DNA from: Porpolomopsis calyptriformis
Lineage: Eukaryota > Basidiomycota > Agaricomycetes > Agaricales > Hygrophoraceae
Length of the DNA: 64,000 nt
Reading direction: 5' to 3'
Assembly: GCA_951640195.1 (NCBI GenBank)
Contig: OX621169.1
Span: 1,984,001 to 2,048,000 of the forward strand
Translations under genes and position numbers: made by a program
Part shown: positions 44,867 to 63,438 of the stretch, piece by piece
Layout: every line of letters starts with the position of its first letter
Numbering within the stretch: position 1 is the first letter of the stretch
The notes under the pieces: generated by a model
Databases searched by the model: none
What the model saw: only the letters and a program-made list of their open reading frames with translations
Told to the model about the DNA's origin: nothing

Positions 44867-45020
44867 GGGTTAAGCGTGTAGTCGATACGATTATGCTTTA
44901 AAGACTTGTAACTACACGCTCACTTTTTTCCAGTCTTGTGACAAGGTTTCGCACGCCGGATCTATGAGGGACCAAATTGGACAAAATTCAATTTTATACA
45001 TGTTTACAATTTGAAAATTA

Positions 45021-45200
45021 ATGCAAACTTGTGCAAAAAAATGCAAACCTGGGCAAATCTGTGCAAACCTGGGCAAATCTGTGCAAACCTATGCAGATCT
45101 GTGCAAACCTAGGCAGATCTGTGCAAACCTAGGCAGATTAATGCAAAATAATGCAAATCAATGCAAATTAATGCAAATCAATGCACAATAATGCAAATTG
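45021..45200 (+). repeat. 10-bp-period array at the left edge of the Harbinger element
   Basis: Eighteen consecutive 10-bp units of the type (A/G)TGCAAAcct, exactly in phase with no slip. They end at the 16-mer GGATGCCAATCTGTAG (45200-45215), whose exact inverted copy borders the right array. Confidence 0.9.
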
Positions 45201-45647
45201 GATGCCAATCTGTAGACATTTATTAGCCTAAATACATCAAAAAACTGTGACAGTCAGAGTGCAAATTATATTCCATCCTCATGGTGCAAACCGTAGCCAA
45301 ATGGATAAACGTCAATAAACATAAAATAATATTTTTTGGCTTTCCACATTTGAGGAGCTTTCGGAAACCATCGGAACATAACAAAGTGTAACAAGAAGTA
45401 ACAAGAAGTAACAAGGCTGTGCATGCCCCCGCTCCCCACGACGTATGAGGACAACTCACCTCAAGCAGGGCTATGGATGATACTGCATTTTATGTATTGT
45501 TGAGAGAAGATGAGGACTCACAGTCAGAGGATGAGGGTGAGCTTCGACAACTTGGTGTTTTAGCACTAAGTGGTGCTCTTGAGGCTCAATCTCTTCGTGC
45601 CGAATGTCGAAGAGCAAATCGACACTATCTCACACGTCCTGAGCTCC

Positions 45648-46017
45648 TGTCACGGACACTTTTTCCTTTTTCTTTTTAGTCATACTTGATTAGTCTCCAT
45701 TCCATTCATCCTTCCGCTTTACTGTTTTATATATAGAGACTGATCACATGTACCTTCCTTCCGACTCTTCACAGGTCACATTCCGTTTCCGTTATTCTTT
45801 TTGTGACTCTTCACTAGTCACATTCCGGATTCCGCTTTGTAATCGTACATACGACTGACTCATGGCGACTCAGGTAGTTAGTATATAAAGCCTGACCTTT
45901 AGTCAGTAGGTTAAGTTCGATTCCTAGTTAGCTCCCCCACTCTTTAGTTGAATTCCATTTCCCTCATCAGCCCCTCCAACGCGAGAAGTAAAACCCTTCG
46001 ACTACCGAATCATAACA
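45648..46017 (+). repeat. 5' LTR of element A
   Basis: 370 bp with TATATAA at 45892-45898 and, about 20 nt later, AAGTTCGATTC at 45913-45923, which is complementary to the first 11 nt after the LTR. Two related GACTCTTCAC..GTCACATTCCG segments lie in the U3 part. Confidence 0.95.
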
Positions 46018-46029: not shown

Positions 46030-46192
46030 CCTTCTTGCGCATCAAACTACTTCCACTCTGGATCCTGCCGAAGACTTAACAAGGTCAATCTTCTCATCCG
46101 CAGATTCAGATACTCCCTTTCAACCCATAGTGTTCCAAACCCCTGCACAATCCATCATCCCCCTTTCCCCCTCATCATCATCACTAACATCA

Positions 46193-47614
46193 ATGTCTCA
46201 ACGAGAATACGAAGCCGATCAGAGCGTTCCCGCACCCGGACCCAGTAACATCCCCCCTACCATTCAAGAAGAAGAAGAAGACGTCGTCCCACTCAACATT
46301 GAACAAGAGCTCAGAGATCTAAGAGCACAAATCGACCAATTCCGTGGCTGGTACTACAACGAAGTTGACGTCAATGACGAACTCCGAAAGGAATTAAAAG
46401 CTCTCAAAGAAAGTCGACGAGAAGACTCAGAACCAACCACCCCTCCCCCACGACAACGATCTGTACTTCGGGGACCTGGACTTTCCCCCTCGAATCCTTT
46501 TGTTTACCCTGCAAGAAGAACCGAATCCGTCCAACCTCCTCTCCCATCAACCTTTCCCACTCAACAACCTACCCAGACAACTGCTCCCCCTACACTTCCA
46601 GCCCCCACCAAAATCAAAATCGCCGATCCAACTGAATACGATGGAACTTCCGAGAAGCTTGAAGATTTCATTCACCAATGTCAACTCAATTTTGTGGTCA
46701 AGGACTACAACGACAAACAGAAAATCATCTACATGCTCTCTTATCTCGGTGACGGCAACCCACGGGCTTGGGGACGACTGTTCACGGAAGGAGTTGATAG
46801 AACGAGGAATTTCGTATGGGACTACGCAACATTCTTGGACGATTTCAGGGAAGCTTTCGGAAGGATTAACCCAGCAGCGAAGGCGCGGATCGAGCTAGAA
46901 AAAGTGAAAATGACAGGAACGATAGAAGACTACAACCTTCGGTTCATGCAACACGCAGCAAGAACTGAGTACAACGAGACCGCTCTACTTCGGTTTTACA
47001 AAGCCGGACTCCCCCAGCCAATCCGAACGCGGATTTATTTGATGGACAACATGCCATCGACCTTGCTGGACTGGACGACGAAAGCGGCCCAGTTCGAGGA
47101 ACAGTACCAGGAGCAATGAGCTGAACAAGCGTTGTGGTCAAGTCGAGACCAAAAAGGAAAGAAGTCTGAAGCCAAATCGAATCCCCGAGGAAACCCTTCC
47201 CGCTCCACCACCACCACCACTTCATCCCCAATCAAACAAGAATTGAGAGAAGCCTCTCTCAAGACAGCGAAACGAGACAACTCCTCCATCACTTGCTACA
47301 ACTGTGGCAAAAAGGGACATTATGCTAACGAATGTCGAAGCCCACATGCTGAAGACGTTCTGGCATGTCAAGAATCCTCAACTTCTACTCGAGGAAAAGG
47401 AGGAAATCGCGGTCGAGGCAAAGGACGAAATGTCCGAACGATCAATCGGGTTGATACAGAAGAATCGGAAGCACGGATAGAGGAAGTACCAGAGGATGAC
47501 GAAAAAGAGAAAAGGACAGCAAAAGATGATTTGAAGAATATGGGAATCGCGAATTGGGACAAGGAGAGACGGGCTGCACTAGCTCGAGCGTTAAAAGAGC
47601 AAAAGGATTTTTAA
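46193..47614 (+). pseudogene. Element A gag
   Basis: ATG 46193 (MSQREYEADQ) opens a capsid-like protein with 'LNIEQELRDLRAQIDQFRGW', 'KIADPTEYDGTSEKLEDFIH' and 'IYMLSYLGDGNPRAWG', typical of chromovirus gag. An in-frame TGA at 47117-47119 interrupts it; the same frame then continues through a CCHC knuckle 'CYNCGKKGHYANEC' to the TAA at 47612-47614. The heptamer GGATTTT (47605-47611) lies immediately before that stop. Confidence 0.9.
47605..47611 (+). promoter_or_regulatory. Predicted -1 frameshift site, element A gag-pol
   Basis: G-GAT-TTT in gag phase, directly before the TAA. It has the form of the GGAUUUA-type slippery sequence known from mouse mammary tumour virus pro-pol. A -1 slip opens the pol frame at 47611. 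Confidence 0.65.
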
Positions 47615-47806: not shown

Positions 47807-48165
47807 TGTCAGAGATATATTTTTTCCTTTTCCTTTGCTCGTCTATTCCCATTTACATCAGACAGTTTACACCAATAGCCGCTTAGCCACCCAAACTCCG
47901 CTTAGTAATACAAGGTGACCAAGCCATATCTATATTTAGTCAACCATCACTCTCCTTATCTACATGACTCATCCATAGTCGTTACGACTCACACGTAGTC
48001 AATATGACTCATACTTAGCTAGTATATAAAGCTAGCAGTAGATAGACTTAGGATAAGTCTGTTTCTTTCATTAACACCCCAATCAGTAGTCTTCCAACCC
48101 TTTAAAACCCTACACCCAGAGCCTGAAGTAAAACCTTGCGATCAACCCTAGACTGCCGTCTAACA
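47807..48165 (+). repeat. 5' LTR of element B
   Basis: 359 bp. TATATAA at 48023-48029; the predicted transcript start about 32 nt after it carries AAGTCTGTTTCT (48055-48066), complementary to the PBS. The U3 part contains several ACTCAT repeats. Confidence 0.95.
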
Positions 48166-48177
48166 AGAAACAGACTT
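48166..48177 (+). promoter_or_regulatory. Primer-binding site of element B, complementary to its own LTR
   Basis: AGAAACAGACTT directly after the LTR is an exact 12-nt complement of 48055-48066 in the same LTR, which fits Tf1-type self-priming. Confidence 0.8.
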
Positions 48178-48345
48178 CCTTCTTGCTCACTCCACGCTAT
48201 ACAACCCCTACTCTGTCTGGCCAGTGCTGAAGGTCTTCACCCACGAGATCAATTTCACCACCCAGACATTAACATCGATTAGGCTTGCTCTCTCCCCTTG
48301 TATTCCCGTCAAGCCCCCCAATATCCAACTGCCACCGTTCCACTA

Positions 48346-49767
48346 ATGGTTTTGACTCGTTCATCATCCACTATCCCTCACCCTGCTATCCCTCTCTCCC
48401 AGGAAGGCTCTCTCCCTCCTGCCCCAGCTCCCATCCTCGACGAGACGGTTGACCCTGCCCAAGAAGAAGAAGAACAAGAACAAGAAGAACAAGCGGGTCC
48501 CTCTCACTCAAAAGGGAAAGGTCGAGCTGAGGACAATGATGAGGATGAAGAAGAAGATCCACGCGTAGCCTTTGAGATCATGAAGCAGGATTATCAACAA
48601 TTGCTGCAGGTCCAACAAGACCAAGCGCAAGCGAGTCATAGAATCGAACAACAACTTCAAGTATTGATGGCCAACCTCATAGGCCCCCAACCTGTCCCTG
48701 CCCCTCTTGGGCTATTCCCACAACCTCTCCAAGCACCCCCAGTATTCCCCCAACCTGTCCCTGCCCCTGCCCCTGTCCCTGCCCCTGCCCCTGCCCCCGC
48801 CAAGATCAAAATGAACCCTCCTGATGAATTCTCTAGTGATCCCACCAAGCTCCGCAACTTCCTGCGTCAAGTGAAGTTGAATCATTTGGGACGACCAGGA
48901 ATCTCAGAGGCCGACAAGATTATCTATGCCTTGTCGTTTATGATCAGAGGAAATGCAGAACCATGGGCTGAGCGTCAAGTAGACGCTTACACAACGTTGA
49001 ACTGGGTTGGTGCCGATTGGGCTGTCTTTGAACAAGCCCTCACCCGAGACTTTGGAGACTTGGACCCCAAGTCAACTGCTCAACTGAAGATCAAGGACGT
49101 CAAGCAGTTCAACAAGAGCGCAGAGGAGTACAACATCAATTTCAATCGATGGGCCCATGATACTGGATACGGACAAGAAGCTTCGGTGACTTTGTATAAA
49201 AACGGACTCAACCCCTCCCTTTTGCGACAGATCTACCTTTCAGATCGTTAACCCACCACCCTCTTTGAATGGCAGTCTCGTGCTGCAGAACTTGACAGAC
49301 GACATCGAGAATTCCTGGCTAGAACATCTTCTAAGCCCCAGACTCGTAACACCCGCATCACCAACACCCCCTACCGACAAGGACCACCTGCTGGTCCCTC
49401 CACCTATTCCAACCCTGCTGCCCCCAGAATCAAACAAGAAGAAAAGCCTGCTTCACTAGGAGGAATTCCCAAAGGAGCATGTTTCAACTGTGGACGATTT
49501 GGCCACTTTGCCAGTTCTTGTCCCAATGCTCCTAGGACGAGTACTTCTGGTTCTGGAAGCCGCCCCTTCACCCCAGCAGCTAGAGGTCATGGAGGAAAGA
49601 AACCCGGTCGAGGAAGAAATGTTCGAGTTCTGGAGACCTCAGCCTCGATTGAGGAGGTCAACTCCAATGAAGATTCTCGTCAAGACTTCGAGAAGTGTGG
49701 TATCGTCAACTGGGAGCCTAAGAGGAAAGAAGAGCTGAAGAGAGCTTTGGAGAAACAGGGTTTTTGA
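48346..49767 (+). pseudogene. Element B gag
   Basis: ATG 48346 (MVLTRSSSTIPHPAIPL). Glu-rich and Pro/Ala-repeat N-terminal region, then the capsid core 'KMNPPDEFSSDPTKLRNFL' and 'IIYALSFMIRGNAEPWAE'. An in-frame TAA at 49249-49251 (after 'QIYLSDR') is followed by the same frame with 'PTTLFEWQSRAAELDRR' and a CCHC knuckle 'CFNCGRFGHFASSC', to the TGA at 49765-49767. Aligned to element A the stop lies inside a conserved block, so it is a lesion and not the natural end. Confidence 0.88.
49758..49764 (+). promoter_or_regulatory. Predicted -1 frameshift site, element B gag-pol
   Basis: GGGTTTT in the phase G-GGT-TTT immediately before the gag TGA fits the canonical X-XXY-YYZ slippery heptamer. 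A -1 slip continues directly into the 1193-codon pol frame at 49764, which has no ATG near its start. Confidence 0.75.
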
Positions 49768-52700
49768 ACAGTCCGGACAATAGCTCGTGCATTGCGGACT
49801 CCTTTTCTATGTGTACCACTACCCCTATGCAATCTATTTCCCAAATTCTTGGTGCACTTGATTCGAGTGAAGAAGCTTTAACCATACCCCTTTGGTTGGA
49901 AACCACAGACACTGGTAGACGAATTGCCGCCAGTGCATTGATAGACTCTGGCGCCTCTGGATGCTTTATAAACTGGAATTTTGTGCAGGAGCGCGATATC
50001 CCTTTTTATCGATTGGAAGGACCAATCCCCATGCGGAACGCAGATGGGACAGACAACCGAGGAGGTCCCATCGAATATGCTGTAGACCTGTGGATGGAGA
50101 CGCCGGATTTTCTTAGGGAACGAACCCATTTGGAAGTGACAAATTTAGGAGATATGATACAGGTTATCCTCGGCTACCCGTGGCTCAAACGTAACGATCC
50201 CCTGGTTGACTGGAAGGCTGGAACACTGACTTCACGTCAGACTGTGGCCCCAACCAAGACTTCTCAGGCTGGAGTGATAGTGTCACGAGTAGGCTCTACA
50301 TTGAATGGCGACTCCTATGCCAAGATTATCAGATTGGTCTCACTGGGAGACCATGCAAGACCCACTACCGTGGAGGAAGATATGAAGAAGTATGTGCCGA
50401 AGAAATACTGGAGGCACTGGAAGGTGTTTATGAAGACCACCTTCGATGAACTTCCCCCACGACGACCAGAATTTGACCATGCGATCGATCTCGAACCTAC
50501 CTTTAGACCCAAGATCGGAAAGGTGTACAAACTCACTGAGTACGAACAGGGAAAGCTGAATGAATTCCTGGAGGAACAACTTGCAAGTGGACGAATACGA
50601 CAATTGAACTCTAAACAAGCTGCCTCCTTCTTCTTTGCTGCCAAAGGTGAAGAAGTTAATGCCCAAGGACAAAATGCTGGACTACGTCCAATCCAAGACT
50701 ATCGCTATCTGAATGCTCACACAATCCCAGACGCCTATCCCTTACCTCTCATCTCTGAGATTATTCAACAGACCAAGTTATCAGAAGCGGAACTGTTCAC
50801 AGTCATGGATATCCGATGGGGCTTTAACAATATTCGTATCAAAGAAGGAGACGAATGGAAAGGAGCCTTCAACACTCGACGAGGGCTGTTCGAGCCCACC
50901 GTTATGTTCTTTGGAATGCGAAACTCGCCTGCCTCCTTCCAACGAATGATCGACGTTCTCTTCAAAGAGGTTATCGATTCCAAGCAGGTCCATATCTATA
51001 TTGACGATATCCTGATCATGGGAAAGGACCTCACTGAACTCACCTATTGGACGGAACGAACTCTAGAGATCATGGAGAAGAACCAACTGTCCTGCAAACC
51101 CGTCAAGTGCCAGTTTGAGAAAAAGGAAGTGATTTATCTGGGGATGATGATCTCAAAAGGCCACATTGCTATTAACCCCAAGAAGGTTGAGGCGATCAGA
51201 ACCTGGCCTATCCCCCAGAAGAAACGAGATCTCCAATCCTTCCTTGGCACTGCCAACTTTTGGCGGAGGTTTATCAAGGATTACTCCCTGATTGCTCGTC
51301 CTCTTAATGAGCTCCTACGAAAGGATCAAGAATGGATTTGGACTCCTAGGCAACAATGTGCTTTTGATACCCTCAAGAATGCGCTTACCTCTGCTCCTGT
51401 TTTGAGGACCCCGAAGCCAGACCTTCCTTACCTTCTGGAGACGGATGCCTCTGGTGTTGCACTGGGTGCAGTCTTGACCCAGAAAGAGAATGATGAAGAA
51501 GATTGGCATCCCATTGGCTTCTACTCCAAGACCCTCCTCCCAGCTGAACGAAATTACCCCACCCATGACCAAGAGCTTTTGGCCATCATATCTGCCTTGA
51601 ATGAATGGAGATACCTTCTACAAGGGACACGACAGCCTATTATGGTCAAGACTGATAACCAGTCCCTCCAATATTTCATGACCAGTCATCAACTCTCCAG
51701 GCGCCAGGCTAGATGGTCGGAATTTTTAGCTCGCTTTTGGTTCAGAATCAGTTACCAGCCTAGAATCAAGAATAAGGCTGATGGACTCTCCAAACGTCCA
51801 GATCATTACCCGGAGTCTTATGAGGAGGTGGAGGACAAGGTCCTTCTGCCAAAAGAACTTTTTGTCAATGCGCTTTTCATCAATGCGATTATCAGTTTAT
51901 CGTCCCCCAACTTTTTATCCAAGCTTTGTTTTCATTCCCCCTTACCTCTCGAGATCATGGCCAAAATTGAAGATCCCTCTTCCGGATACACCCACGTAGA
52001 TGGCATTGTGCGCGATGCTGGAGATCGTATAGTTGTGCCAAAGGACATATCTTTGCGCACAGAAATTATTCGATTGACCCACAACACACCCACTGGTGGC
52101 CATCCCGGTATTGAGAAGACGAAGGAATTGCTCCTCCGTAATTACACATGGGAAGGTGCCCCACAAGATATCACCAATTACGTGAAGTCCTGCCTTGCTT
52201 GTCAACAGACCAAGGTTTATCCACAGAAACCCACTGGACTTCTCCAACCGTTACCCCCTCCTACTAAACCGTGGCAACAGATCACTGCTGATCTTATCGT
52301 GGAACTCCCTAACTCAAAAGGATTCGATGCTATTCTAGTTGTGGTGGACAGATTCACCAAACGGGCTCACTTCATCCCAACAACTGGAAACCTGTCTGCT
52401 AAAGGAACTGCTGCGCTATTTCAAGAACATGTCTGGAAGCACCATGGATGGCCAGAGAAGATCATTACTGATCGAGGAACCCAATTCTCATCGAAGTTCG
52501 CTACGTCATTGAATGAACTCCTAGGAACCACTTCTGGGCTTTCTACCGCCTATCACCCCCAAACAGATGGACAAACCAAACGAACCAATCAAGAGTTAGA
52601 GCAGTACATACGGCTCTACACTAACTTCATGCAAGACGATTGGAAAGATTGGTTAGCTCCGGCGGAGTTCGCTTATAACAACCGAGAACATTCCTCCACT

Positions 52701-53345
52701 CACCAATCCCCCTTCTGGCTTGAATATGGCCGACACCCTCACACCCCCTTATCAGTTCCAACCCAAACCTCAAATCCCGATGCCAACGAGTTTTACGTGC
52801 AGCTTACTAGAGCTAGAGAGAACGCTGAAGAGTCTCTTCAAAAGACTGCTAACTCAATGAAGCTCTATGCCGATCGAAAACGTCAAAAGGAACCCACGTT
52901 TTACGAAGGACAAAGGGTCTGGCTTGATGCCAAGAATTTGAAAACTGGCCGGCCCGCAAAGAAACTGGATGTCCGCCGGCTCGGACCTTTTATAATTCTA
53001 AAACAAGTATCGCCTGTGGCTTACCGACTAAAGCTACCGCTGTCATGGAGGATTCATCCCGTGTTTCACGTTTCGCTACTCAAGGCTCTAGAAGAGAATC
53101 TCAATCTCCACCCCCCGATCGGAGAAGATGACAATCTCCGACCACCTCCAGATGTGATCGAAGGAGAGCCCGAGTATGAAGTGGAACGTATTCTCAATCA
53201 CACCCCAGGAAAACGGAACCGACAATACCTAATCAAGTGGAAAGGCTACCCAATAGAGGCAGCCACCTGGGAACCACGATGGAACCTCAAGCACGCAAAA
53301 GATGTCTTAATGAATTATGAAAAGTCTATTCAAGCGGCGATTTAA
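49764..53345 (+). CDS. Element B pol polyprotein with chromodomain
   Basis: About 1193 aa and uninterrupted. Protease 'SALIDSGASG' near residue 60; RT with 'LRPIQDYRYLN', 'FFGMRNSPASFQRMID' and YIDDILIMG near residue 411; RNase H with 'LLETDASGVALGAVL' near 557; integrase zinc finger (H-H from 'GGHPGIEKTK', C-C from 'CLACQQ') near 780-812 and the DDE core ('ITADLIVELP', 'ITDRGTQFSSKF', 'TNQELEQY'). The C-terminal chromodomain has 'EYEVERILNH', 'YLIKWKGYPIEAATWEP', with Tyr and two Trp at the cage positions. Chromodomains of this group steer integration to chromatin marked on histone H3. Confidence 0.96.
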   Translation: MNSPDNSSCIADSFSMCTTTPMQSISQILGALDSSEEALTIPLWLETTDTGRRIAASALIDSGASGCFINWNFVQERDIPFYRLEGPIPMRNADGTDNRGGPIEYAVDLWMETPDFLRERTHLEVTNLGDMIQVILGYPWLKRNDPLVDWKAGTLTSRQTVAPTKTSQAGVIVSRVGSTLNGDSYAKIIRLVSLGDHARPTTVEEDMKKYVPKKYWRHWKVFMKTTFDELPPRRPEFDHAIDLEPTFRPKIGKVYKLTEYEQGKLNEFLEEQLASGRIRQLNSKQAASFFFAAKGEEVNAQGQNAGLRPIQDYRYLNAHTIPDAYPLPLISEIIQQTKLSEAELFTVMDIRWGFNNIRIKEGDEWKGAFNTRRGLFEPTVMFFGMRNSPASFQRMIDVLFKEVIDSKQVHIYIDDILIMGKDLTELTYWTERTLEIMEKNQLSCKPVKCQFEKKEVIYLGMMISKGHIAINPKKVEAIRTWPIPQKKRDLQSFLGTANFWRRFIKDYSLIARPLNELLRKDQEWIWTPRQQCAFDTLKNALTSAPVLRTPKPDLPYLLETDASGVALGAVLTQKENDEEDWHPIGFYSKTLLPAERNYPTHDQELLAIISALNEWRYLLQGTRQPIMVKTDNQSLQYFMTSHQLSRRQARWSEFLARFWFRISYQPRIKNKADGLSKRPDHYPESYEEVEDKVLLPKELFVNALFINAIISLSSPNFLSKLCFHSPLPLEIMAKIEDPSSGYTHVDGIVRDAGDRIVVPKDISLRTEIIRLTHNTPTGGHPGIEKTKELLLRNYTWEGAPQDITNYVKSCLACQQTKVYPQKPTGLLQPLPPPTKPWQQITADLIVELPNSKGFDAILVVVDRFTKRAHFIPTTGNLSAKGTAALFQEHVWKHHGWPEKIITDRGTQFSSKFATSLNELLGTTSGLSTAYHPQTDGQTKRTNQELEQYIRLYTNFMQDDWKDWLAPAEFAYNNREHSSTHQSPFWLEYGRHPHTPLSVPTQTSNPDANEFYVQLTRARENAEESLQKTANSMKLYADRKRQKEPTFYEGQRVWLDAKNLKTGRPAKKLDVRRLGPFIILKQVSPVAYRLKLPLSWRIHPVFHVSLLKALEENLNLHPPIGEDDNLRPPPDVIEGEPEYEVERILNHTPGKRNRQYLIKWKGYPIEAATWEPRWNLKHAKDVLMNYEKSIQAAI

Positions 53346-53459
53346 CTCTCTTTTACAAATACTACCGACATCACGATCGTTGAGCCTCTTTTTCTCCTTT
53401 TCAATCTCCGACGATTATAAGGACTTCCCCTTCCCGACAATCATCAAAAGAAGCACGAA

Positions 53460-54152
53460 ATGCCCCGCCAAGTTCTTTATGCTCGCAAGTCGACTGGGAG
53501 GCGTCCACCTTGAGGGAATCCCACCGCTTCTACCTCCAACCTCCCCCCCGATTCTTCTTCCTCCTCTTCCTCGTCCGACAGTGTCTTGGTTACCCGATGG
53601 TTCAAGAAGCCGAAACGACGTACCGATACTATCGACAAGCCGGGACGAAACCGTAACTACCGAGGGCTCCCCTTTGCCAAGGTCGAGCACCTATCTGGGT
53701 GCCCCGAAACCTATGTCCCTTTTATCTCTGGAGCACGTCGATGCGAACTTAACTATGACCGTCACTGGTACACGTTCGACAAGGACAGCGACTTTGACAA
53801 CAAGAAGAATCAACTCGAAGATTGGCTGGAGGCGTACCAAGTTGGGCGCCAACTTTTGATGGTTATACCAGACCAGGACGAATCCGACGTCACCACCCCC
53901 ACTATCCCCGAAGACCCCATCTCGCACCGCATCCATCGCGTCGCCGACCGACTCTATGCTGCCCGAAACGGGTACCGCTCGATGATGGATGCCAAGTACG
54001 AAAGGATCCTTGACCTGGAGGAGAATGCTGTGATGTGTAGGGAGCTGGCTGAAACTTGGTTGCGACGTGCCCGGGAGTTGGATGGCCGTTACCACTGGTT
54101 TGACCCAGATGGACACCTGCTTCAACCCCCAGTTTATGATGGCGCGACCTAG
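53460..54152 (+). pseudogene. Element B third ORF, H3-tail-like start
   Basis: Begins 114 nt after the pol stop. ATG 53460 opens 'MPRQVLYARKSTGRRPP', in which ARKSTG equals histone H3 residues 7-12. TGA at 53511-53513 interrupts the frame; a CGA codon in its place would give the RPPR seen in element A. The frame then continues about 213 codons: Ser-rich, 'LVTRWFKKPKRRTDT', a segment with 'HLSGCPETYVPF' and 'DRHWYTFDKDSDFDNKKNQL', and a helical stretch 'YERILDLEENAVMCRELAET', to the stop at 54152. No known domain. It is not an envelope protein: no signal or membrane segment. Confidence 0.75.
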
Positions 54153-54431
54153 GGACCGGATGCTGTTTCCGAACGAACAGTATTCCTTACGCCTCCCTTC
54201 TGGATGTGTGGTTAGAGAAGGTGATATCTACTGGAGAGTTGAGGAAAAGTATACCTAGTGGATAGTCTTTGATCCGACAACTATCCACTCATCCCTCCTC
54301 TTCATCGCTCACCCATCTCATCACCCCTCTACCCACCTCTACCATCCCTTTACACCTCCCCTTGACACCCTTCCTTCACTTCGAAGGGTCTCCTCAAAAT
54401 TCGGGACTAATTTCCTTTTTGTGGAGGTGAA

Positions 54432-54790
54432 TGTCAGAGATATATTTTTTCCTTTTCCTTTGCTCGTCTATTCCCATTTACATCAGACAGTTTACACCAA
54501 TAGCTGCTTAGCCACCCAAACTCCGCTTAGTAATACAAGGTGACTAAGCCATATCTATATTTAGTCAACCATCACTCTCCTTATCTACATGACTCATCCA
54601 TAGTCGTTACGACTCACACGTAGTCAATATGACTCATACTTAGCTAGTATATAAAGCTAGCAGTAGATAGACTTAGGATAAGTCTGTTTCTTTCGTTAAC
54701 ACCCCAATCAGTAGTCTTCCAACCCTTTAAAACCCTACACCCAGAGCCTGAAGTAAAACCTTGCGATCAACCCTAGACTGCCGTCTAACA
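54432..54790 (+). repeat. 3' LTR of element B
   Basis: Differs from the 5' copy at three positions by eye, all transitions. Confidence 0.95.
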
Positions 54791-57700
54791 CTCAGGGAAT
54801 TTTATTGACGAAGCATTCGTTCATCAAATGGAGATATCGACCTATCCATTGGATGAGGTTGTACCGGTACGAAACGCTGATGGTTCCGAGAACTGAGGAG
54901 GTCCCATCATGCACGACACAGACCTGTTTATCGAGGCACCAGATCTATCTTTTCGAGAACGAATCCAGTTGGAGGTTACCAACTTAGGAAGAAAACAACA
55001 GGTCATCCTCAGCTTCCCATGGCTCTTGCGACACAACCCCACTATCAATTGGACAAAAGGCACCTTAACCTTTGCATCTGGTGACACGCTGTTTAGTAGT
55101 ATGCGAGTCGGAGTGTTGCCCCCACAGGAAGAACTCTATGTCTTTGATTCGAGTCTGAAACATGACTCCTTTATCCGTCTGGTTGGAGTTGACCACTCCC
55201 GACCAGTTTCCATCGAGGAGGACATCAAATCCTTCATTCCCAGTCGTTATCATAATTTCTGGCGTGTTTTCCATACCGCAGAATTCGACAAGCTTCCTCC
55301 TCGACGTCCCTTCGATCATGCGATCAACCTCTACCCAAACACCAAATTTCAAGTCAGAAAACTTTACCCCCTTTCTCCCTATGAACAAGTGGAACTTAAT
55401 AAGTTTATTGACGAAAATCTCAGAACAGGTCGGATACGTCCATTGAAATCGCCACAGGCTGCTCCTTTCTTCTTTGCGAAAAAGGCCGAAGAGATCAATG
55501 CCAAAGGTCTCAGTGCTGGTCTACGTCCCATCCAGGACTATCGCTACATCAACTCGAAAACCATTCCTGATCGTTATCCCCTCCCCCTTCTATCGGAAAT
55601 CCTCCAAGTGCTGAAGCTTGCTACTGCTTCACTTTTTACTGTTATCGATATTCGATGGGGATTTAACAACATACAACTCAGAGAAGGCGACGAATGGAAG
55701 GCAGCCTTCATCACCAATCGAGGACTCTTTGAACCGACCGTTATGTTCTTTGGACTACGAAACTCCCCAGCATCTTTTCAACGAATGATAGACGTTCTCT
55801 TTAAACCCGTTCTAGACTCTGGCAGTGTTCACATCTATATTGACGACATTCTTATTATGGGCGACACCCCCGAAGAAATCCGCCACTGGACTGACGAAAC
55901 CCTTAAACTCATGGAGAAGAATCAACTATCCGCCAAACCTGTCAAATGCCAAATGGAGAAGACCTCTGTTACATACCTTGGTACGATCATCAGTAAAGGT
56001 CAACTCGCTATCAACCCAAAAAAGGTAGACGCCATTAACAATTGGCCGACACCCCAAAAACTGCGAGACCTCCAGTCCTTCCTTGGCACCACCAACTTCT
56101 GGCGTCGTTATATCAAAAGTTTCTCCTCAGTCGTTCGTCCCCTCTGCGGACTTTTGCGGAAAGACCAACCTTGGGATTGGTCTCCTTTGTGTCAAAAAGC
56201 CTTTGAACAACTCAAATATCTTGTCACTACAGCTCCTGTCCTTCTTACCCCGCGGCCAGACCTTCCTTACCTCCTAGAGACCGATGCCTCCGATTTCAGT
56301 ATTGGCGCGGTCTTATTTCAAAAACACGACAATGGTTGGCACCCTGTTGGCTTTTTCTCGAAGTCCCTACTCCCTGCCGAGTACAACTATCCTACCCATG
56401 ATCTGGAGATGCTTGCGATCGTCACTTCCCTCAAATATTGGCGCTATCTTTTAGAGGGCGCAAGGGATACTGTATTGATAAAAACAGACAATTTGGCGCT
56501 GAAGTATTTCATGCAGAACAGATCCCTCTCCAGACGACAAGCACGTTGGATGGAATTCTTAGGCAGATTCGACTTCAAGATCGAGTATTCTCCTGGAGTC
56601 AAGAACAAAGCTGATGGACTCTCTCGCCAACCTGACCACCGTTGTACAGAAAAAGAAGAATTAGAAGGCAAAGCCCTCCTCCCCCCCGAACGTTTCATCA
56701 ATGCCATCATTTCCATGTCCAAACCCTCTTTCATGTCAAAACTTCGCTTCCCTGACTTCAACCAAATCCCAGAGGACATTCGCATCAAGTTATCTGATCC
56801 CTCTTCCGGCTACTCCTTCACTGACGGAATTGTGAGAGATGCAGGAGATCGTATTGTCGTGCCAGCAGATGTATCGCTACGCACAGAGATAATTCGATTG
56901 ACCCACTCCCTACCCCATGGAGGCCATCCCGGAATCGAGAAGACACGTGAGCTTGTGTTGCGGAACTACACCTAGAGTAGTGCTGCCCCTGACATCCGTG
57001 TATTCGTATCATCCTGTCCGACCTGCCAACAAGTCAAGCTCTATCCCTCTAAACCTGTAGGTCTCCTGGAACCCATTCCCCCTTCGTCTCGACCTTGGGA
57101 AGAAATCACCGCCGATCTAATCGTGGAACTCCCCCAATCATCTGGCTATGATGCTGTTTTAGTCGTTATCGATCGCTTTACCAAACGCGCTCATTTCATC
57201 CCGACGACATCGAATATTTCTGCAGAAGGAGTCGCAAAACTCTTCAGGGACAACGTATGGAAACACCACGGCTGGCCAAAGAAGATCATAACCGATCGAG
57301 GAACTCAGTTCGCTTCCAAATTCACGAAAGCTCTCAATACTCATTTGGGAATCATCTCCGGTCTATCCACTGCTTATCACCCCCAAACTGATGGTCAAAC
57401 GGAACGCACCAATCAAGAACTTGAACAATACCTTCGTTTATATACAAACTTTATGCAAGACGATTGGTCCAACTGGCTATCCCCAGCTGAATTCGCGTAT
57501 AATAACTGACAGCACTCCTCGATGAAACACACTCCCTTCTACCTTGACACTGGCCAACATCCCTTCATCCCATCTATCCCTGCGATCCCTACTTCCAATC
57601 CCGCAGCAGATGCCTTTCACGATCATCTCACAGAAGCCCGTAAAGAAGCCACAAAAGCTCTAGAAACAACGGCCGAAACTATGAAATGCTTTGCAGATCG

Positions 57701-58281
57701 TAAACGGAAAGATACCCAACTCCAAATAGGTCAATTCATTTATCTTGATACCCGTAACTTAAAAACAGGTCGTCCAACTCTCAAACTTGATGTCCGACAC
57801 ACTGGACCATTCAAAGTTCTAGAAAGAATCGGAAAAGTCTCTTATCGCCTGGCCCTTCCCTTATCATGGAAAATACACGACGTCTTTCACGTTTCACTCC
57901 TGAGACCTGCCAACATTAACTCCAATCTCCACCCAGAGGAAGTAGATGATAATCTTCGTCCACCTCCGGATGTCATTCAGGAAAAAGAAGAATACGAGGT
58001 CGAACAAATTCTCCAACACCACAGGTCTACCCGACGTCGTACGTATTTGGTTAAATGGGTCGGCTATCCCATTGAGGAAGCAACTTGGGAACCGAAGAAA
58101 AACCTCCTCCATGTGAAAGAACGAATTCTAGAATACGAACACTCAATTCAAACGGCGACCTAATCATTCTTTCACGGTATCAACTCCCCTCGTTTATATT
58201 TTCACTTTGTCACCTTTCCAAACTCCAACTTGTCCTTATAATCTCTTTCATCTCCGTCTTTCACTAGAAATCGACATCACT

Positions 58282-58860
58282 ATGCCTGCAGAACGCTCAC
58301 ACCAAACCGCTCGCAAGTCAACTGGTGGTCGTCCACCCCGCGCTCCTCATATGTCCACTGGAAGACGATCCCCTCGTCGCGCTCCCCCTCCACTCGCTTC
58401 CACCTCCTCCGCCTACGGTGAAGCTGAGCTCGCTGGATAACTCTGGCAGCATAACCGATGCGCACGCAATCGGGACCTTCCCATATGGCCAGAAGAAATC
58501 ATCGCGCCACCCATCCCACCCGAGCAAATCATCGAGTCACTGCAGAAGGACGTCAAATACTACAAAGACGAAATCGCGAGATTGAATGAAGAACTGTATA
58601 ATCAAGGAATGAGCTTGGATGGAAAGAGAAGAGCGAGTGAGTATTGGCGAGAACAGGCCAAACACTGGGAGACGAAATACAAGGAAGTCGTAAAGGTACT
58701 TCCCCATCTTGATTCCCCGGTTCCTCCTGTTTTCCCAGGTCCGCTCATCGTTCCCCCCGGTTCGTCGTCGAACCCCATCACCATCCCCGACAACGACGAT
58801 ACTTCCCCGGCTGACATTATTTCCCTGTCGACCGCCGTCTCCGACAAGGACTTAATCTAG
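58282..58860 (+). pseudogene. Element A third ORF with histone H3 tail-like N-terminus
   Basis: Begins 118 nt after the pol stop. ATG 58282 opens MPAERSHQTARKSTGGRPPR. Residues 8-16 (QTARKSTGG) are identical to histone H3 residues 5-13, and P19 and R20 match H3 P16 and R17. A basic, Pro/Ser-rich region follows ('STGRRSPRRAPPPLAS'). TAA at 58438-58440 interrupts the frame, after which it continues with a predicted coiled coil ('IIESLQKDVKYYKDEIARLN', 'RASEYWREQAKHWETKYKEV') and a Pro/Asp/Ser-rich end to TAG 58858-58860; 193 codons in total. No membrane segment. Function unknown; the H3-like tail at the same place in both elements suggests a chromatin role (inference). Confidence 0.78.
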
Positions 58861-58940: not shown

Positions 58941-59310
58941 TGTCACGGACACTTTTTCCTTTTTCTTTTTAGTCATACTTGATTAGTCTCCATTCCATTC
59001 ATCCTTCCGCTTTACCGTTTTATATATAGAGACTGATCACATGTACCTTCCTTCCGACTCTTCACGGGTCACATTCCGTTTCCGTTATTCTTTTTGTGAC
59101 TCTTCACTAGTCACATTCCGGATTCCGCTTTGTAATCGTACATACAACTGACTCATGGCGACTCAGGTAGTTAGTATATAAAGCCTGACCTTTAGTCAGT
59201 AGGTTAAGTTCGATTCCTAGTTAGCTCCCCCACTCTTTAGTCGAATTCCATTTCCCTCATCAGCCCCTCCAACGCGAGAAGTAAAACCCTTCAACTACCG
59301 AATCATAACA
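58941..59310 (+). repeat. 3' LTR of element A
   Basis: Differs from the 5' copy at five positions by eye, all transitions. Followed by the duplicated GCTCC. Confidence 0.95.
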
Positions 59311-60624: not shown

Positions 60625-62435
60625 TCAGTCCATGACAATGTCAGACTGCACAGGATCTATGGGACCTATGCGGGTGTAGGTCACCTTGCTACCAGTGCTT
60701 GCGCTGGAGGTACCGGTGGGGGGTTCAGACTCAGAGCCAGAGTCCTCCCACTTCAGGAAGTGATGTTTCCGCTTCCGAAAGGATCGCTTGACCCGAGCCT
60801 CGTTTATCAAGGCAGCGAACTCCACGCGGTCTGCACAGCGCTCCGCAGCATACCTTTCATGATCCGACTCTACCAGGCGAGTGCGTAAGCTCTCGAGCAT
60901 GGCCTGGGTGTCGCGGAGTTGGTTGGACAATGTGAAGATTTGCGCCATTTGGAGGGAGCACGTGCTTCTCTCCTCGCTTTGTGCAGCCTGCAACTGAGGG
61001 TCCAGAATGCTGGATATGGTGTTCAGGATCTGGTGGGAAGTAGTCTTCGACTTCATATTTGTCGCATCTGGCCGACGCGCAATCGGGATGGAGACGTCGG
61101 TAGGCTCCGTCTTGACCTTGGCAGGGTTGTATGGCAAAATCGTTGGGGGGAGTTCCTCGTCGCTACTGATTACCATAACCTCATGGTCAGTAGCTTCGTT
61201 CGCAATCTCTTCGTCGTCGAGGTCCCTCGTTCCAACTTTGTCGTTCATCGCGGTGAGGATGGCATGTGCGCGATCAATTTTGGGGGGGCACTCAGCATCC
61301 CCAGTCGGCTTTTCTACGCAAACGAGCTGAAGGGATATGTATATATTAGATACATAGAATGATTGATATAATAAAATAACTTACCTGTTTGAACTTGTTC
61401 TCGAGCAATCGATACTCTCAACTTACTCGTCCATGTGCCTTTGCCCACAAGTCAAAGGCATTCCCGACCTCCTTCCAACCCTTCATTCCAACAGGGAGGA
61501 GGTCTTCCGCGATGTCCAGAAGAGCATTGATATCTTCCGGTGAGTAGTTTGGCGAGCCAGCACCACGCCCTCGCTTTTTCTTGACAATCAGCGGGGAGAG
61601 ATCGGCGATGGCGCCTTCATGCTTCAAGGCAACATGCGCTCTCTTAGCGGCTGGTTTCTTTTTGACACGGCGGGCACCCCCAACCATGGTCGCTGGCTGA
61701 GCAGATGTACTGGGCTGGGGGGGGGGAACATTTTCGACATCAGCATTGGACGAGAGTGATAGGGGGAGTTGAGGGACTGTAAACATTGGATTCAGCAGCC
61801 CATTGATGGGCATCAATGGCTGTATTAAGTTAGTCTATAGTATGTATACCAGAATACCAGAAAATACGCACGAACTTGTACTGGCCTTCAGGGACATGAT
61901 GGGTGGGGACAGTGGGATCAAAAGGCTCGCCGAAACTAGACAACCTCATCTAGCACTGATATGAGTATCAGTTTGAGATGGAGAAGGCGTGTACGTACCA
62001 GTTGTTGAATCGCATCTACTTCCGAGGCAGAATAGCCCCAAGGCGCAGTTAACGCAAGGGGGGCACGATCATTTCCGGAAGCGATGGTGTTGAGTGACTG
62101 GGTACAATCGGCCATCGGAGAATCCACAAAGATGTATGTCTAAACGAATGACTTAGTGCTAAGGAGGGGAAGTGGGATAGATGGGGACTCAACGCGAGAG
62201 GTAAGGCATTTTATGGCGGCAGAAAGATCGCCGTCGTAGATGGACTGCAAGACCCAAAGTGTGAATGACCTGCGAGATGAATAATAACAATAAGAATCGA
62301 TTTCCCCTAAGGAGGGGCCAGAACTTACCATCCGATGACTTCAGGTGTAAAAGTCAGACAGTCTGAGCTTATACAACAGGCTACGATGCTGGGGGTGTCA
62401 AGCGTGAGGCGTTGGAGGGAGCCGGAAGGCCCCAT
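60625..62435 (-). pseudogene. SANT/Myb-like partner protein of the Harbinger element
   Basis: From ATG 62435 (MGPSGSLQRLTLDTPSIVAC) about six exons join in frame: 'SFTLWVLQSIYDGDLSAAIK', 'FVDSPMADCTQSLNTIAS', 'MRLSSFGEPFDPTVPTHHVP', 'PLMPINGLLNPMFTVP'. A lysine-rich stretch precedes a SANT-like domain: 'NYSPEDINALLDIAEDLLPV', 'GWKEVGNAFDLWAKAHGR', 'YRLLENKFKQL'. An in-frame TGA (61418-61420) lies inside this domain, between AHGRVS and EYRLL. The last exon has an acidic SUMO-interaction-like 'EVMVISSDEELPP' and a coiled coil. In PIF/Harbinger the Myb-like partner helps the transposase enter the nucleus and bind ends. The internal stop makes it a pseudogene unless it is bypassed by splicing. 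Confidence 0.75.
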
Positions 62436-62534: not shown

Positions 62535-62637
62535 CAGATTAAAGTTTATAGAGAGGTGGATTTTTGATATTCGGACCTTATTGTCACACTGCCGACTCGG
62601 CATGTCAAGATTTATTGTTTACAACACATTCTAAACG

Positions 62638-62653
62638 CTACAGATTGGCATCC
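62638..62653 (-). repeat. Inverted copy of the 16-mer bordering the left array
   Basis: The exact reverse complement of GGATGCCAATCTGTAG at 45200-45215. It marks the inner edge of the right array as its partner marks that of the left array. Confidence 0.9.
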
Positions 62654-63272
62654 ATTAATGCAGATTTTAATGCAAATTAATGCAAACTTGGGCAAAATTG
62701 GGCACTTGGGCAAACTTGGGCAAACTTGGGCAAAATTGGGCAGACTTGGGCAAACTTGGGCAGACTTGGGCAGACTTGGGCATATTTGGGCATATTTGGG
62801 CAAACTTGGGCAAAATTGGGCAGACTTGGGTAAACTTGGGCAGACTTGGGCAGACTTGGGCAGAGTTGGGCAGAGTTGGGCAGACTTGGGCAAAGTTGGG
62901 CAGACTTGGGCAAAATTGGGCAGAGGTGGGCAAAGTTGGGCAAAGTTAGGCAAAGTTGGGCAAAATTGGGCAAAATTGGGCAAAAATTGGGCAAACTTGG
63001 GCATATTTGTGCAGACTTGTGCAGACTTGTGCAGACTTGGGCAAAATTGGGCAGAGTTGGGCAAAGTTGGGCAAAGTTGGGCAGACTTGAGCAAAATTGG
63101 GCAAAATTGGGCAGAGTTGGGCAAACTTGGGCGGAATTGGGCAAACTTGGGCAGACTTGGGCATATTTGGGCAGACTTGGGTAGACTTGGGCAGACTTGG
63201 GCAGACTTGGGCAAAATTGGGCAAAATTGGGTAGACTTGGGTAAACTTGGGCAGACTTGGGCAGAATGGGGC
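62654..63272 (+). repeat. 10-bp-period array at the right edge of the Harbinger element
   Basis: About 60 units of consensus GCAAACTTGG with variants (GCAGACTTGG, GCAAAATTGG), nearly perfect 10-bp phase with a few 1-bp slips. Because 10 is not a multiple of three and stops are absent from the unit, long open frames appear on both strands; they are by-products of the repeat and not genes. Confidence 0.95.
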
Positions 63273-63438
63273 ACACACAGGCCTGTCATGAAATTGGCGT
63301 TCACTCTCTTGAAATTCTTCTCTTTTCTTCGTTCTTTTCTTTTCTTTGCCTATTCTCTTTGGAAAGGGGGCTGTCTTTATTGGCAGCGGAAACTATTTGT
63401 ACAAAGAGGGGGAGTCCATGTCCGACTAACTATCTAAA

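Follow-up and report, generated by a model that had tools for sequence, protein, structure and literature searches.

A histone H3 tail-like motif in the third open reading frame of two chromovirus families of Porpolomopsis calyptriformis, a candidate mimic of the H3K9 methylation substrate

The window analysed here is a stretch of 64,000 nucleotides of the Porpolomopsis calyptriformis genome (assembly GCA_951640195.1, contig OX621169.1, positions 1,984,001 to 2,048,000 of the forward strand). It contains two LTR retrotransposons, one nested in the other, whose features all lie on the + strand. The outer element, A, is bounded by a 5' LTR at 45648..46017 and a 3' LTR at 58941..59310, which share 98.6% identity over 370 bp, and has a 5-bp target duplication (GCTCC). 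A gag-like ORF at 46130..47119 matched Ty3_capsid (PF19259, E 3.5e-9). The remains of pol (54909..58163) are split into ORFs at 54909-56975, 57123-57509 and 57522-58163, the last of which carries the integrase C-terminus and the chromodomain; this end of pol matched Chromo (PF00385, E 5e-14) and SH3_Tf2-1 (E 4.6e-19). A 688-aa piece of A pol matched proteins with PF00078, PF17917, PF00665 and PF00385. Element B (47807..54790) is inserted in A and has 359-bp LTRs (47807-48165 and 54432-54790) that are 99.2% identical, a target-site duplication (CTCAG) and a pol at 49764..53345 that forms a single open frame of 1193 aa with a chromodomain at its end.

With their LTR pairs and target-site duplications, A and B are both chromoviruses. 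A has a Ty3-type gag and a pol with reverse transcriptase, RNase H and an integrase ending in a chromodomain, and B pol, to which the A pol piece is 63% identical, probably has the same domain content. Among the 120 matches listed for A pol, the named organisms belong to the Agaricomycetes, except for one bacterial MAG. Outside the two elements, a degenerate 10-base repeat (AAACTTGGGC-like) forms a long array at 62584-63300, open in several frames on both strands, and a shorter related array lies at 45015-45204.

A third frame, ORF3, follows pol in both elements. In A, 118 bases separate it from the pol stop, and it comprises 193 codons including the terminal stop (58282..58860). The N-terminus is MPAERSHQTARKSTGGRPPR and the translation from 58282 reads MPAERSHQTARKSTGGRPPRAPHMSTGRRSPRRAP... 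/ MPAERSHQTARKSTGGRPPRAPH.... A preliminary description of the window had treated this frame as an open ORF, which is not true of the window copy. There, a sole in-frame stop at codon 53 (58438-58440) lies 3' of the motif described below, and this copy thus encodes 52 residues, motif included. The frame is open to codon 193 in 27 of 30 fetched genomic copies, the window copy being among the other three. Upstream of ORF3 (58130-58281), overlapping the end of pol, the frame is open for 50-70 codons in 22 of 30 A copies and closes 5-47 codons upstream in the remaining 8. A pol-ORF3 frameshift product is thus conceivable in A. In the window copy of B, two stops separate pol from ORF3.

From residue 8, A ORF3 reads QTARKSTGG (58303..58329), identical to histone H3 residues 5-13 by translation, six-frame scan and PDB matches. 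A basic residue follows at the position of H3 K14, then matches to P16-R17, and the H3-like positions extend to the arginine at 58339-58341 (H3 R17). Translation therefore bore out what the preliminary description had claimed for this frame, a stretch near the N-terminus equal to H3 5-13 with P16 and R17 also matched. No other site in the six-frame scan of the window had at least 7 H3-identical residues. When the first 52 residues of A ORF3 were shuffled 200,000 times, exact matches to H3 1-40 never exceeded 6 residues, against 9 observed. A PDB search with the first 33 residues gave a best E of 0.0034, and the best 60 of 128 matches (up to E 10) were all histone H3, H3-variant or H3-peptide chains.

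Across the genome (33.5 Mb, 17 contigs), the DNA pattern for ARKSTG (GCNCGNAARTCNACNGG) occurred 122 times and its reversed-pattern control 0 times. Read in context, 33 sites drawn from the 100 listed of these 122 fell into A-type ORF3 (20), B-type ORF3 (11) and host H3 genes (2). Alternative codon spellings of ARK[ST]TG gave 2 and 0 sites, with 4 for the reversed-pattern control each time. The H3-identical sequence in ORF3 is beyond chance; the shuffles and the genome-wide reversed-pattern control ruled out chance or low complexity as its origin.

The remainder of A ORF3 was examined by structure prediction and domain search. AlphaFold2, run from the single sequence on the piece after codon 53, predicted two long helices with low-confidence flanks (58519..58698; residues 27-54 and 59-86 of the folded piece). 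The helices had pLDDT values of 63-87 in ten-residue blocks, and the mean for the piece was 58. None of three scanned pieces of ORF3 had a Pfam match above the cut-off; weak matches below it were to SlyX, a coiled-coil family and a DUF. Toward the end of A ORF3, at 58765-58830, lies SSNPITIPDNDDTSPADIISLS, which we take to resemble a SUMO-interacting motif. A separate 207-aa ORF on the - strand (60625-61248) contains VMVISSDEELPP, to our eye likewise similar to such a motif.

ORF3 of element B (53460..54152; 231 codons with the stop) starts MPRQVLYARKSTGRRPP, and the six-frame scan placed ARKSTG, H3 residues 7-12, at 53481..53498, a site that is absent from the preliminary description. The window copy is interrupted at codon 18 (53511-53513); for its 17 residues alone, a six-residue H3 match was reached by 12 of 200,000 shuffles. 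One of 12 full-length B copies was free of internal stops, this set being 11 copies picked for having the motif plus the window copy. A and B have H3 residues A7-G12 and P16-R17 in common (R17 in B copies without the stop there), and A alone also has Q5, T6 and G13. The alignment between the two ORF3s is confined to A residues 8-55, covering ARKSTGxRPPR and a Ser/Pro stretch. With 44 A sequences and 11 of the 12 B sequences as input, the frameshifted B being left out, hhalign gave a probability of 63 and E 6.8e-5 for this short and biased stretch.

We then surveyed copies of both families in this one genome. The A ORF3 search scored 40 of 101 candidates, all at 88-100% identity; its query contained the motif, so the copies were not selected for the motif, yet the set is not motif-blind. 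Of the 30 fetched copies, 25 retained the whole of QTARKSTGG and 26 the ARKSTG core. The other 10 scored copies comprised 6 with the exact pattern in place, 1 more that was intact and 3 with the arginine changed. Overall, the core was intact in 33 of 40 scored A copies, and its lysine and serine were kept in 40/40. For B the query excluded the motif, 40 of 120 candidates were scored and 38 of these 40 examined. The motif was intact in 25 (18 by the exact pattern in place and 7 among 20 fetched), point-changed in 11, and cut off or unalignable in 2. Judged by eye, a CpG transition lay within the motif in all 11 changed B copies, one of which had an additional change, and in 6 of 8 changed A copies (7 with a changed core and 1 with G13 changed). 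Such transitions are the decay expected of methylated, silenced copies. Six DNA methyltransferase matches were found in the genome.

Selection was assessed on the 30 fetched A copies (L001-L030). Pairwise pN/pS was 0.06 for QTARKSTGG (0.03 with CpG transitions masked) and 0.18 for the motif plus RPPR (0.04 masked). It was 0.63 for codons 2-7, where masking left no synonymous changes, and 0.61 for the linker, codons 21-52 (0.58 masked). On a tree of the A copies, codons 8-16 underwent 26 codon changes and 5 residue changes, whilst codons 2-7 and 17-24 underwent 36 and 31 (Fisher p 2e-7, a value that is indicative because codon make-up and CpG content differ between the two sets). K12, S13 and T14 had 6, 3 and 6 codon changes, respectively, and no residue change in the 30 copies. 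The motif thus looks to be under purifying selection among A copies. The RPPR arginines are less stable in A: 5/30 copies have R17 changed and 6/30 have R20 changed.

Constraint in A ORF3 extends beyond the motif. Values of pN/pS were 0.13 for codons 54-85, 0.08 for codons 86-135, 0.51 for codons 136-192 and 0.24 for codons 2-192 as a whole (0.15 CpG-masked). By a joint measure of low pN and high pS, 13 of 182 nine-codon windows equalled or exceeded the motif in constraint, the motif itself being counted; with CpG transitions masked, 26 of 182 did. Between families, identity in a 33-base block was 49% at third codon positions, against 88% over the first and second positions together (43 A x 19 B copies, some of the A copies being motif-picked and L031 left out). 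A and B hence differ mainly at third positions, indicating that the protein is what is conserved. Taken together, the A copies and the comparison of A with B argue that the motif has been kept by selection.

Two host H3 genes were among the sites read (L054, G000:C2:3412919; L123, G000:C5:691287), and in each the reading frame is interrupted directly behind the G13 codon, apparently by an intron. The following exon of L054 (KAPRK...) could be made out in another frame; in L123 the frame break alone was seen. QTARKSTGG in L054 is apparently a very short exon. On this basis the ORF3 segment could derive by capture from a host H3 gene and be carried along in the elements without a role, and the exact match of A to H3 does stop at G13, where both host frames break. 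The likeness nevertheless runs past that break (R-x-P-R), and the segment is common to two families that are only 63% identical in pol. Synonymous change also far outweighs amino-acid change in A, and third positions account for most of the difference between A and B. Since a passenger would drift, this pattern of selection largely refutes the capture explanation, which we consider very improbable. A recent capture of an H3 exon limited to the window copy, which the preliminary description had raised against its own proposal, was not found either: it is ruled out by the many copies and two families, and the likeness goes beyond G13.

A third ORF without the motif was found in another family, C (L111/L126, G000:C2:508674 onward, and L118). 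It lies in the same place, starts MPATRSTRSPSPQVAIRRSG... and has a basic N-terminus. In the copy read it extends 161 codons to a stop, beyond which the frame goes on to a PIDDDD stretch. It contains neither ARKS nor an H3 motif, and hhalign gave no likeness to A ORF3 (E 0.07) or B ORF3 (E 0.34). The third ORF thus occurs more widely than the mimic, and some elements of this kind here can dispense with the mimic. The preliminary description had counted homologous third ORFs without the motif as evidence against its idea; family C does have an ARKS-free third ORF at that position, but one lacking detectable homology to those of A and B.

Family C also bears on whether the basic N-terminus of ORF3 is simply a nucleic-acid-binding or nuclear-localisation tail, with a convergent likeness to H3 and no part in methylation or chromodomain binding. 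In all three families the tail is rich in R, P and S, that of C is basic without ARKS, and selection acts on much of ORF3 besides the motif, all of which would suit such a function. A merely basic tail fits less well with K12, S13 and T14, whose residues are fixed in 30 A copies despite codon changes, or with R5, R17 and R20 outside the motif, which change often, although CpG in arginine codons explains part of this. The order of residues moreover follows H3, including PR at 16-17. We therefore regard this explanation as unlikely, and favour a mimic of the H3 tail.

The distribution of ORF3 was followed further. The chromodomain search scored 150 of 718 candidates, and 38 loci were inspected (L061-L090, L111-L118): 33 had an MDDFFGID-like stretch, 2 belonged to family C and 3 were neither. 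In six frames, neither RKSTG nor ARKS was present at these 38 further loci, and three had an unrelated ARKT. Another chromovirus clade of this genome (L061-L090, L112, L113, L116, L117) thus has a conserved MDDFFGIDERLYDPITDS..GEDYKPP..NIDV stretch after the chromodomain, seen at 33 of the 38 loci and in frame with pol in several copies. Beyond this genome, the 52-aa piece of A ORF3 found no homologue in the protein collection, and the 192-aa ORF3 of an open copy gave 169 candidates, none at E 0.1. The collection does hold fungal relatives of pol, so the negative result does not stem from a total lack of fungi; small accessory ORFs are frequently unannotated. In viral_contigs, 8 stretches matched the pattern and none was confirmed as ORF3, and pol alignment searches of viral_contigs and genome_contigs gave zero confirmed loci.

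We also checked the element's own chromodomain. That of A (57966..58160) has a complete aromatic cage, with the Y codon at 57993, W at 58056 and Y at 58065, and the Y-W-Y cage is kept in 30/30 A copies. By eye, the B chromodomain has Y-W-Y at the cage positions too. The best PDB matches of the A chromodomain include Oxpecker, CDYL, CDYL2, HP1 and SUV39H1. Compared with the cage positions of group I chromodomains as given in the available text of PMC3350952, the three aromatics place both chromodomains in group I, as judged from sequence. The same text reports that the MAGGY chromodomain binds H3K9me2/3.

The motif also contains what an H3K9 methyltransferase is reported to need. In vitro, the Neurospora enzyme DIM-5 requires only H3 R8-G12, according to the accessible part of PMC3248561, and SUV39H1/2 recognise RKST plus flanks, according to that of PMC8303541. 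RKSTG, the R8-G12 set for DIM-5, is present in both A and B. The host genome contained one Pre-SET match, presumably marking an enzyme of the SUV39/Clr4/DIM-5 type. A search of the host for the HP1 chromoshadow domain gave zero matches, as did its control, and so carries no information on the host. HP1 chromodomains contact H3 Q5-T6. As B lacks Q5-T6 and has what the writer requires, the comparison tips the balance a little toward the methyltransferase as the partner shared by the A and B mimics.

The partner could in principle be some other binder of the H3 tail, such as S10/T11 kinases or phospho-readers, K9 acetyltransferases or H3 chaperones. Viral mimics have varied partners, namely PAF1C/Chd1 for the ARSK of NS1 and KAT2A for the ARKS of ORF8 (PMC10208167, as far as its available text goes), and S10 and T11 are kept in the motif. 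Against this, R8 and G12, part of the DIM-5 requirement, are also kept in both families, the element itself encodes a caged chromodomain, and the nuclear mimic role of ORF8 is disputed in the available portion of PMC10833455. We think such partners quite improbable and prefer the H3K9 methylation axis. On that axis, the H3K9-like bait put forward in the preliminary description gained from recurrence in a second family, protein-level conservation, selection in A, predicted helices 3' of the motif, a complete cage and the DIM-5 match, and lost some generality with the third ORF of family C, which has no ARKS.

Our main reading is that ORF3 is a selected H3K9 substrate mimic of chromoviruses that would act on the writers and readers of H3K9 methylation, and we put its probability at roughly 0.58. 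In this view, a group of fungal chromoviruses would encode ORF3 as an accessory protein, with an N-terminus that is probably disordered and has been selected to imitate the tail of H3 around K9. A host H3K9 methyltransferase would methylate the lysine of ARKSTG as it does H3K9. The helical middle of ORF3 may multimerise the protein, so that several methylated H3-like tails would be displayed together. These tails could occupy the chromodomain of the element's own integrase, either tethering it or keeping it off chromatin until assembly is complete. They might also, or instead, occupy host readers and the methyltransferase itself as a silencing decoy. We hold use on the element's own integrase and use as a host decoy to be about equally likely. 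Expression, methylation, multimerisation and binding of ORF3 are steps that we infer.

A broader proposal can be made only tentatively, and we lean against it: the retrotransposon may encode both halves of the H3K9 methylation handshake, with ORF3 as the ligand and the integrase chromodomain as the reader. The host silencing methyltransferase would then be the switch, either linking particle assembly or integration with heterochromatin or diverting the silencing machinery from the chromatin of the element.

Histone mimicry is known from viruses and a few host proteins. Viral H3 mimics, among them ARSK in NS1 of influenza A H3N2 and ARKS in SARS-CoV-2 ORF8, resemble the present case in that a parasite protein has a short H3-tail-like motif thought to engage chromatin enzymes or readers, but comprise four residues, compared with 9 H3-identical residues in A and 6 in B (PMC10208167, available text). 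Here, by contrast, the carrier is an LTR retrotransposon with its own H3K9me-type caged chromodomain, which thus encodes both the putative ligand and its likely reader. The H3 mimic of Swi6 is said to bind Swi6's own chromodomain. In Swi6/HP1 an H3 mimic causes auto-inhibition (Canzio et al. 2013, as cited in the available part of PMC7192584), and there too an H3-like sequence and a chromodomain occur in one system in which self-binding can regulate. In Swi6/HP1 both parts are in one host protein, whereas in A and B they are in two transposon proteins and host methylation would probably be needed.

Chromoviruses of the MAGGY type are likewise Ty3/gypsy elements whose integrase ends in a Y-W-Y group I chromodomain, but a third ORF with an H3 mimic is not named in the available text on them (PMC3350952). 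According to the same text, ORF3 of SM1-Galahad from Selaginella encodes a chromodomain, whereas that of A and B encodes a putative ligand. LTR retrotransposons of bdelloid rotifers are similarly described as having extra ORFs besides gag and pol (PMC5408684, available part). The open PMC literature on histone mimicry and extra transposon ORFs largely lacks subscription papers; among the matches listed from it, none named, in its title or the start of its abstract, an H3 tail mimic encoded by a transposon.

On the main reading, the host H3K9 methyltransferase should modify ORF3 at K12, and the element's own chromodomain should bind ORF3 there. If this reading is correct, a transposon copies the segment of H3 that is used for transposon silencing, and the conflict of mobile elements with heterochromatin would gain a new front. 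It could also help to explain why chromoviruses retain an H3K9me-type reader.
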